Assembly (NCBI GenBank): GCA_022844045.1
Contig: JALHMM010000024.1
Span: forward strand, 1-64,000
DNA from: Reyranellaceae bacterium
GTDB lineage: Bacteria > Pseudomonadota > Alphaproteobacteria > Reyranellales > Reyranellaceae
Reading direction: 5' to 3'
Length of the DNA stretch: 64,000 bases
The notes beneath the pieces were generated by a model, which saw only the letters and a program-made list of their open reading frames with translations, had not been told where the DNA came from and did no database searches. Position numbers and translations under genes: made by a program. Below, piece after piece: positions 30,767-33,399 of this stretch. Within the stretch, counting starts at the first letter, position 1. The number at the start of each line of letters is the position of its first letter.

Positions 30767-31963
30767 TCAACCGTTGAACCGCCACGCCTTGATGCGGCCG
30801 ACGTTCTTGGCGTCGATCGGTGGCGTCTCGGCGAACTGTGCCGCCGCGGCGTCGTCGAGCGTCTGGTGGAAACGGTTGCTGACGACGATCTCGCCGGGGC
30901 CGGCGGTCGCCATCAGCCGCGCCGCCATGTTCACCGCGTCGCCGATGAAGCCGTAGTGCCGGGAAGAGAAGGCGCGCAGGCGCATCAGGTTGAGATCGCC
31001 CATGGCGATGCCGAGATGCACGCCCTTGGCGTCCTGCACGCGATCGATGCGCCGCTGCCAGTGGTCCGACACGGACTCGCCGATATCGATCAGCCGGCGC
31101 GCGCAGCCGAGCGCCGCCTCGGCGTCGCCGCGCCGCGGGGTGGGATAGCCGAACACGCCGATCACCTCGTCGCCGACGAACTTGTCCATCATGCCGCCGG
31201 CATCGAGCACGGCCTGGCGCGCCTGCGAGTAGAACGAGGTCAGGGCCAGGCGCACCAGCGCATCGTCGCGCGTGTCGCGCACGTAGCTGGAGAAAGCGCA
31301 GAGATCGGCGATGACGATGATGATGTCGCGATAGGTGCCGGGCTGCATCACGTCGTCGGGGCCGAAGCCGCGCTCGCGGTGCAGGCGCGCCAAGGTCCAC
31401 GGGCTGAAGTGCCAGAGCAGGGTCGGCATCATGCGTTCGTCCGCGGCCGTGCCGAACGCCGACCGCCACTCGGCGCGCATCACCGCGTCGCGAATCAGGC
31501 GCAGGCTGCCGCCGCTGAAGCCGTCGAGATCGAGGCCAAAGCCGGCCTGCACGCGCGCCAGCAGCTCGCGCTCGCCCCAGGCTTCGATGGCGAGATCGGG
31601 CGACAGGCGCTCGCGCAGGCGGCCGAGCGTGCCGCTCCAATCGTCGCCGTCGACCAGATCGCTGACCAGCAGCAGCCGGCGGGCGTCGGAGTCGGGATTG
31701 TGCTCGTACTTGCGCGCCAGGCGCTCGATCAGCTCGCGGCCGCTATAGCCCCATTTGACCTCGACGAAGTACGGCGCGGCGCCGTCGGGCGCGACATGGA
31801 GGTCGGCGAAGGCGGCGGACCTGCCGAGCGACACCTCGCGCCGCACCTTGATCGCCTCGGCCGCGAGATGGTCGCGTGCGACGTGATCCATGCGGCAGAG
31901 CTCGCCGCAAATCTCCTCGAGGAAGAGGCGGACCTCGCCGAGATCGGGCGCGCCGTCCGACAT
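30767..31963 (-). CDS. PD-(D/E)XK-like domain fused to a class III nucleotide cyclase domain
   Basis: A 398-residue cytosolic protein. Residues 30-105 carry a nuclease-fold pattern: Asp54 in FADLHV, then FVEVKWG with Glu68-Val-Lys70, followed by the strand RRLLLVSD. Residues 205-398 form a class III cyclase domain with metal ligands Asp220 (IADL) and Asp265 (VGDE), the base-contact Lys261 and the transition-state Asn345/Arg349 (AVNMAAR). The residue that normally fixes purine choice as Asp is Gly338 (HYGFIGD). So it is probably an active cyclase, with nucleotide specificity uncertain. The N-terminal domain may cut or only bind nucleic acid, or may be a degenerate sensor. Its ATG shares a base with the stop of the enolase-superfamily gene before it (TGATG), so the two are coupled. 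Confidence 0.75.
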   Translation of the reverse strand: MSDGAPDLGEVRLFLEEICGELCRMDHVARDHLAAEAIKVRREVSLGRSAAFADLHVAPDGAAPYFVEVKWGYSGRELIERLARKYEHNPDSDARRLLLVSDLVDGDDWSGTLGRLRERLSPDLAIEAWGERELLARVQAGFGLDLDGFSGGSLRLIRDAVMRAEWRSAFGTAADERMMPTLLWHFSPWTLARLHRERGFGPDDVMQPGTYRDIIIVIADLCAFSSYVRDTRDDALVRLALTSFYSQARQAVLDAGGMMDKFVGDEVIGVFGYPTPRRGDAEAALGCARRLIDIGESVSDHWQRRIDRVQDAKGVHLGIAMGDLNLMRLRAFSSRHYGFIGDAVNMAARLMATAGPGEIVVSNRFHQTLDDAAAAQFAETPPIDAKNVGRIKAWRFNG

Positions 31964-33105
31964 CAATGGCTCTCCCGCCGGTCGGTCAGCCAACGACCGC
32001 AGGACTCCAGGTCGGGCTCGACGCCGATGCCCGGCGCGCCCGGAATTGGCAATGCGCCGTCGCGCAGCGTCGGTACGGCGACCAACGCGGTGCGCAGCGG
32101 GTTGTCGTTGGCGTCGATCTCCAGGCAGCCGGCGCCGCCGACGGCCGCGAGCGCGTGGGCGGAGTGCATCAAGCCCACGCCACCGCTCAGCCAATGTGGG
32201 CAGTAGCGCTTGCTGGCGGCCACGGCGGCGCGGCCGACCGCGACGCAGCCGCTGACGCCGCCCCATTTGCCGATATCAGGCTGGATCACCTGCAGCACGC
32301 CGCCATGCGCCGCCGACATCAGATCGTCACCGCGCAGGTTCTCGCCGCCGGCCAGCGGCACTTCATAGGCGGCCGCGCAGGCGCGCCACTCGGCCTCTGG
32401 CCGGTCGGCGACGATCGGCTCCTCGACCCAGTCGAGCGCGAACCCGGCCATGACGGGCGCCAAGCGCACCGCCTGCTCGATGCTCCAGCCCTGATTGACG
32501 TCGACCATCAGCCGCTCGTCCGCGCGCAGCACCTGACGCAACGCGCGGAGGTTGGCCACATCGGTGTCCTCACCGAAACCGATCTTCTGCTTGAACGCGC
32601 GGTAGCCCTCGGCGCGCTTGCGCTCGACGATCGCCGGGCCGTCACCGGGATTGATGCCGCTGGCATAGACCGGCACTGCGTCCAACGCGCCGCCGAGCAG
32701 GGCGCAGAGCGGCATCCCGGCGCGCCGCGCGGCGAGGTCCCACACCGCCTGGTCGAGCCCGGCCAAAGCCGCGGCCAGCGGGCCGGGCTCGCCGCTCTGC
32801 ACCGCCCAGACATGGGTCGCGGCGCTGAGCGTGCGCCAGAGAGCGGCGGGATCGCCCACCGTCTGACGCAATGCGCGCGGCGCCACGGCGGCGTGCAACA
32901 CGCGCGCGCGATGCTCGGCGCCATAGGACGGGAAGTTGCTCCAGATCTCGCCCCAGCCATGCGCGCCGTCGCGATCCTCGACGCGCACCAGCACCGCCAC
33001 GCGATCGGTGAAGGTGCCGAAGGCGGCGATCACCGGCTTGTCGATCGGCACGCGCAAGACGAAGGTCTCGATGCGCGCGATGGTGAAGGGGGAGGGTAGA
33101 GACAT
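31963..33105 (-). CDS. Mandelate racemase/muconate lactonizing enzyme family protein (copy 4)
   Basis: A 380-residue enolase-superfamily enzyme. Motifs are FKQKIGFG (KxK), VDVNQGW (metal Asp), VEEPI (metal Glu), GGEN (metal Glu) and CPHWLSGGVG with the catalytic His, so it is a complete member of the mandelate racemase subgroup. It lacks a transporter or dehydrogenase partner next to it; instead its stop codon overlaps the start of the nuclease-fold/cyclase gene. That coupling of a metabolic enzyme to a signalling protein is unusual. Substrate unknown. Confidence 0.9.
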   Translation of the reverse strand: MSLPSPFTIARIETFVLRVPIDKPVIAAFGTFTDRVAVLVRVEDRDGAHGWGEIWSNFPSYGAEHRARVLHAAVAPRALRQTVGDPAALWRTLSAATHVWAVQSGEPGPLAAALAGLDQAVWDLAARRAGMPLCALLGGALDAVPVYASGINPGDGPAIVERKRAEGYRAFKQKIGFGEDTDVANLRALRQVLRADERLMVDVNQGWSIEQAVRLAPVMAGFALDWVEEPIVADRPEAEWRACAAAYEVPLAGGENLRGDDLMSAAHGGVLQVIQPDIGKWGGVSGCVAVGRAAVAASKRYCPHWLSGGVGLMHSAHALAAVGGAGCLEIDANDNPLRTALVAVPTLRDGALPIPGAPGIGVEPDLESCGRWLTDRRESH

Positions 33106-33150: not shown

Positions 33151-33399
33151 TCAGGCACGCTCGGCGATCAGGTCGACCAGGGCGCCGAAGGTCGGCACGT
33201 GTGAGAGATCGTCGTCGCTCAGCGTCACGCCGATGCGCCGCTCGACGCCCAGCGCCACTTCGATGGCGTCGAGCGAATCGCCCAGCGCCTCGGGCATCGG
33301 CGTTTCGTCGTCGATCGCCGCCGGTGAGCGGCCCAGCGCCACGACGATCTCCCCGATCGCCTCGCGCGTCCAACACGCCTCATGCCTGACCGTGATCAT
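33151..33399 (-). CDS. Stand-alone acyl carrier protein
   Basis: An 82-residue carrier protein. The LGDSLDAIEVALGVERRIGV segment carries Ser42, the phosphopantetheine attachment site (DSL), on helix II of a four-helix bundle. It is too divergent from housekeeping AcpP to be the main fatty-acid carrier; stand-alone ACPs of this kind serve special lipids or natural products. No ketosynthase or adenylating enzyme adjoins it. It has a strong AGGAGGG ribosome-binding site and a promoter whose -10 box is covered by a palindrome matching the TetR-type site upstream of the divergent regulator gene. Confidence 0.85.
   Translation of the reverse strand: MITVRHEACWTREAIGEIVVALGRSPAAIDDETPMPEALGDSLDAIEVALGVERRIGVTLSDDDLSHVPTFGALVDLIAERA

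Follow-up and report, generated by a model that had tools for sequence, protein, structure and literature searches.

The window, a stretch of 64,000 nucleotides, carries on its minus strand a fusion gene of 398 codons plus stop, whose product joins a PD-(D/E)XK-like domain to a class III nucleotidyl cyclase domain (Table 1). Its translation contains the residues described in the earlier note, which were Asp54 (FADLHV), Glu68-Val-Lys70 (YFVEVKW), Asp220, Lys261, Asp265, Gly338, Asn345 and Arg349, and the joining of a nuclease-like domain and a cyclase in one chain was confirmed by full-length homologs in eight genomes. The open reading frame is a real gene. Comparison with two same-genus orthologs gave dN/dS values of 0.22-0.24 for the N-terminal domain and 0.08-0.37 for the cyclase, indicating that the gene is under purifying selection. 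A long plus-strand open reading frame across the same stretch was rejected as a mirror-frame artefact, typical of a genome of roughly 68% GC.

Table 1. Features of the fusion gene and its upstream neighbour (window coordinates).
Feature	Position	Strand	Evidence
Whole gene, PD-(D/E)XK-like / class III cyclase fusion protein, 398 aa	30767..31963	-	Translation; full-length homologs, 45-88% identity
N-terminal PD-(D/E)XK-like domain, residues about 7-150	31514..31945	-	Invariant triad; AF2 element order (low confidence); profile hits in register but weak (Mrr_cat, UPF0102, pPIWI_RE_REase)
Asp54 codon, putative metal ligand, predicted strand 2	31802..31804	-	Homolog alignment, AF2, profile comparison
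Glu68-Val69-Lys70 codons, ExK motif; predicted strand 3 contains Glu68 and ends right before Lys70	31754..31762	-	Homolog alignment, AF2, profile comparison
Linker, residues 155-208; about 182-200 (LLWHFSPWTLARL and after) resemble a cyclase transducer element	31340..31501	-	Near-invariance in homologs; agrees in position and pattern with RRFLAPQLAQAI / SRFLAPEVAERI of genome paralogs
Class III nucleotidyl cyclase domain, residues 209-396	30776..31339	-	Pfam PF00211, E 7e-8; solved cyclases
Asp220 codon, first metal Asp	31304..31306	-	Alignment to known cyclases
Lys261 codon, first base-selecting position; Gln in two distant homologs	31181..31183	-	Homolog alignment
Asp265 codon, second metal Asp	31169..31171	-	Alignment to known cyclases
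Gly338 codon, second base-selecting position; Gly in 8/8 homologs	30950..30952	-	Homolog alignment
Asn345 to Arg349 codons, transition-state pair; Asn to Lys in L029	30917..30931	-	Homolog alignment
Upstream gene, mandelate racemase / muconate lactonizing enzyme family protein (context only)	31963..33105	-	Stop overlaps fusion start codon (TGATG)

The N-terminal domain carries an invariant triad and probably has a PD-(D/E)XK fold

Asp54, Glu68 and Lys70 were invariant in all eight homologs, down to 37% identity of the N-terminal domain. The earlier note had named homologs without these three residues, or a confident structural match to a non-nuclease fold, as grounds for giving up its nuclease reading; every homolog keeps the triad, and no confident match to another fold was obtained. 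Glu16, Glu17, Arg42, Glu43, Arg84, Lys85 and Tyr86 were likewise invariant. Since the triad falls among few invariant columns (29 of 166 in the domain, and 9 of its 33 Asp, Glu and Lys residues), the hypergeometric chance that three chosen residues are all invariant is about 0.005 over all columns and about 0.015 over Asp, Glu and Lys only, and by this count the PD-(D/E)XK triad exceeds a chance motif.

The AF2 model of the domain, computed from a three-sequence alignment, reached a pLDDT of 51 (36 for the full-length protein, from three close sequences). At this low confidence its elements are H2-24, E33-37, E46-50 (Asp54), E60-63 (Glu68), H69-81, E90-94, H103-113, E119-123 and H125-136 in domain numbering, to which 6 is added for residue numbers, and the order alpha-beta-beta-beta-alpha-beta-alpha-beta fits PD-(D/E)XK. 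Foldseek with the model returned nothing at or below E 1e-3; TM values were about 0.3 and the best matches were not nucleases. The match lists did include some folds of the restriction-endonuclease type (EcoO109I, BstEII and Can2; viral restriction endonucleases, endodeoxyribonuclease I, and RPB5 with its N-terminal domain of this fold), but many unrelated ones stood beside them, and the lists were given little weight.

Profile comparisons were made by hhalign with a profile built from the eight homolog sequences. The alignment to Mrr_cat covered 107 columns with the Asp and the ExK motif in register and scored 23.9, which was reached by none of 280 column shuffles (reversed control, 20.3); that to UPF0102 spanned exactly the D...ExK motif, with a score reached by none of 80 shuffles. 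In Pfam, single members matched pPIWI_RE_REase (E 0.0096-0.14, positions 28-112 of 117; best 16.4 bits versus the 26.1 cut-off) and PDDEXK_10 (E 0.015; 15.6 bits versus 21.2), in both cases below threshold. No curated PD-(D/E)XK family in Pfam was matched above its cut-off, a criterion that is supporting rather than defining in so highly diverged a superfamily. A pPIWI_RE_REase search over 249 genomes found no matches, not even in controls, and therefore carries no weight; PHROGs gave only weak matches, to families without function.

Taken with the invariant triad, these lines, each weak alone, make a restriction-endonuclease-like PD-(D/E)XK fold the most likely one, and we consider this assignment probable. 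The claim of the earlier note is supported by the triad, the element order and the weak in-register matches, while the fold itself is unproven at a pLDDT of 51 and with no Foldseek match at or below E 1e-3. The domain shares with Mrr_cat, UPF0102 and pPIWI_RE_REase the D...ExK in register and the predicted element order, at weak sequence similarity; it differs from them in being always joined to a cyclase, without helicase, PIWI or methylase partner.

The cyclase domain keeps its catalytic residues and its base-selecting pair suggests ATP as substrate

Residues 209-386 matched Pfam Guanylate_cyc (PF00211) with E = 7e-8 (32.7 bits versus the 21.9 cut-off), and solved bacterial adenylate cyclases matched the domain at 4e-11. 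As the earlier note had read it, and as judged by alignment, this part is a class III nucleotidyl cyclase in which the metal (Asp220, Asp265) and transition-state (Asn345, Arg349) residues are all present. All four are kept in seven of the eight homologs. The exception is L029 (1489-2673, plus strand), the most distant homolog, which has Lys for Asn345 and Gln for Lys261 and retains the full PD-(D/E)XK triad. These changes may alter or abolish the activity of its cyclase; one cyclase whose transition-state Asn is replaced by Ala is described as active (PMC4215837). With Lys261 replaced by Gln in both distant homologs and Asn345 by Lys in one, substrate and activity may vary across the fusion family.

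The contrast drawn in the earlier note between Gly338 and the Asp of the two other cyclases in the window (about 40.07-41.95 kb and 46.97-48.85 kb) was borne out by alignment. Asp is not the local norm at this position, since the seven further cyclases of the same genome that were checked all have Thr there. Synechocystis Cya2, a guanylate cyclase, has a Glu-Gly base-selecting pair (PMC4215837) and shares with the fusion the Gly at the second position; it differs in its CHASE2/transmembrane input and in the Glu of the wild type. The Cya2 substitution E488K gives an adenylate cyclase specific for ATP (PMC5995499) and turns Glu-Gly into Lys-Gly, the same pair as Lys261/Gly338. By this analogy, conversion of ATP to cAMP is our best guess for the reaction of the fusion cyclase. 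A reading of Gly338 as the sign of a non-purine or pyrimidine product was dropped, because the Lys-Gly pair is that of the adenylate cyclase Cya2 E488K.

In a tree, the fused cyclases grouped with one solo relative, apart from nine genome paralogs (support 96/96). The nearest relative found that is without the N-terminal domain is L124 (1462-2151, minus strand), a stand-alone cyclase of 229 aa with Arg and Ser at the base-selecting positions. The genome of the window (G000, 6.4 Mb) contains 18 class III cyclase matches.

A transducer-like segment precedes the cyclase

Residues 182-200 of the linker (LLWHFSPWTLARL and after) are nearly invariant across all homologs, and this segment shares place and pattern with RRFLAPQLAQAI and SRFLAPEVAERI of genome paralogs. 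A cyclase transducer element has been described at the same position in sensor-cyclase proteins (PMC5995499). By pattern and position, the segment favours control running from the N-terminal domain to the cyclase over the reverse direction. The fusion resembles CyaB1 of Anabaena (1wc0) and the phytochrome-Cya2 PaaC construct in its cyclase (by sequence), the two metal Asp, the Asn/Arg pair, and an input domain with a transducer-like linker before the catalytic domain. It differs from them in that its input is PD-(D/E)XK-like instead of PAS, GAF, CHASE or phytochrome, and in its Lys-Gly pair.

The fusion gene is patchily distributed and has no fixed partner

Of the eight genomes with the full-length protein, six belong to the family, half of them to the fusion's own genus and half to a second genus (59% identity); the other two come from separate families of the class (50% and 45%). 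Its own genome aside, the protein was found in 5 of the 76 genomes searched in the order, and in 2 further ones among 385 of the class. Same-genus genome G002, listed as 100% complete, gave no match, so the gene is accessory by this comparison. All eight homologs of the N-terminal domain found in about 850 genome scans are fused to this cyclase; no copy lacking it appeared when profiles of the domain were run against 76 genomes from the order, 385 from the class and 398 from the phylum. These sets overlap in part, and in the two larger ones at most nine candidates per genome were scored, which may have let free copies slip through. Viral contigs, phage records and plasmids yielded no homolog of the domain.

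The TGATG overlap of the enolase-superfamily gene (mandelate racemase / muconate lactonizing enzyme) with the fusion gene is conserved in three genomes of the genus, the own genome and both orthologs, from which the two genes probably form one operon. Directly upstream of the enolase-superfamily gene lies a small acyl-carrier-like gene (82 aa, GDSLD motif; 33151-33399, minus strand), and all three genomes have the carrier, enolase-type enzyme and fusion genes in this order. Amidase and branched-chain-type ABC transporter genes occupy the other side of the fusion gene in two of them. In the other genus, the gene before the fusion encodes either a CBS-domain or a DUF2063 protein, and the fusion gene faces one for a PAS histidine kinase. 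The neighbours in the two distant genomes, with names read from translations without a family scan, are dapA and smpB-like genes in one and periplasmic-binding-protein-like and GNAT genes in the other. No partner, effector, mobile-element or defence gene recurs among the neighbours, which were assigned by Pfam or synteny in six genomes and, for the two distant ones, from the translations themselves. The survey of homolog neighbourhoods for defence genes that the earlier note had proposed thus found none beside any copy examined.

Proposed function and alternative explanations

The gene, the fusion, the intact residues, the co-inheritance of the domains, the linker pattern and the lack of a fixed partner gene can be read from the sequences themselves. 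The explanation that we prefer, tentatively and with slightly less than even confidence, is a one-component signalling protein in which a nuclease-fold input domain controls an adenylate cyclase. In such a soluble enzyme, the N-terminal PD-(D/E)XK-fold domain would be the input and would most likely bind, possibly cleave, nucleic acid or a nucleotide-like ligand through Asp54, Glu68, Lys70 and metal. The transducer-like segment 182-200 would pass the input state to a homodimeric class III cyclase, which would make cAMP from ATP through the Lys261/Gly338 pair; the targets of this cAMP would be regulators that bind cyclic nucleotides and are encoded at other places in the genome. Against this explanation stand the low model confidence of the N-terminal domain, the non-nuclease best matches in Foldseek and a top profile match to acyl carrier proteins, and against ATP selection stands the Gln at position 261 of the two distant homologs, by which Lys261 is not strictly conserved.

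A more specific version, a nucleic-acid-gated adenylate cyclase, is possible but rather unlikely: the PD-(D/E)XK domain would recognise or cut particular DNA or RNA ends and thereby switch cAMP synthesis in the same chain. If true, DNA damage or foreign nucleic acid would be coupled directly to cAMP signalling. Many input domains have been recorded for class III cyclases, but no report of a nuclease-fold one or of such a cyclase fusion was found in the searched literature (open-licence papers). If the domain does sense or cut nucleic acid, one soluble protein of 398 residues would feed a nucleic-acid signal directly into cAMP signalling.

Less likely than the preferred explanation is that the domain, a PD-(D/E)XK fold or a look-alike, serves as a non-nuclease input that binds a ligand or protein, its acidic and Lys residues being structural or ligand-binding. 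Class III cyclases pair with very many domains, with 746 Pfam architectures (PMC4886424); the profile matches of the N-terminal domain are weak; and the gene is, in the genus, translationally coupled to a metabolic enzyme gene. What speaks against a non-nuclease input is the invariance of the triad at 37-54% identity, in register with Mrr_cat and UPF0102.

Reverse control, with the PD-(D/E)XK domain as an effector nuclease switched on or off by the state or product of the cyclase, for example in stress or defence, appears unlikely. The complete Asp/Glu/Lys triad of all homologs suggests catalysis rather than mere binding, and the patchy presence would also suit such a role. However, the domain order and transducer-like linker are those of sensor-to-cyclase proteins, Pfam finds no cyclic-nucleotide-binding domain in the protein, and none of the copies examined adjoins a defence gene. 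Were the cyclase to control a nuclease in this way, a nuclease and its cyclic-nucleotide link would be united in one compact protein, in contrast to CBASS and Pycsar, in which effector and cyclase are separate.

We regard it as still less probable that the N-terminal domain is another alpha/beta domain, outside PD-(D/E)XK, whose helical end resembles an acyl carrier. Acyl carrier proteins do give the domain its strongest profile match (residues 90-162, window about 31478-31696, minus strand; hmmsearch E 5e-4, several chains; hhalign score 25.5, residues 123-163). Yet this match does not reach the Asp54-Lys70 core, the carrier-like part lacks the phosphopantetheine Ser, no single member matches Pfam PP-binding, and the model shows strands in place of the helix I and loop of the carrier fold. 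The similarity is probably a coincidence.

A Pycsar-type pyrimidine cyclase with a fused nuclease, a connection raised in the earlier note, is highly improbable and was rejected on PycC scores, pocket residues and neighbourhood. The fusion has the class III cyclase core in common with PycC, and PADLOC PycC models match its cyclase domain, but the match is generic, since PDLC00734 gives 38 bits here versus 71-114 for six ordinary genome paralog domains (five of them at least 72). The pyrimidine-selecting residues of PycC are Tyr50/Asp94/Arg97 in BcPycC and Phe60/Lys104/Phe109 in AnPycC (PMC11224242). By position, these correspond here to Ile218/Val263/Glu266 and Ile218/Val263/Ile268, and neither PycTM nor PycTIR adjoins any copy examined.

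A minor observation on the preferred input-domain and adenylate cyclase protein concerns the two halves of its gene. Between the window and L002, dS was 0.54 in the N-terminal domain and much lower, 0.18, in the cyclase half, a gap that recombination inside the gene could have produced.
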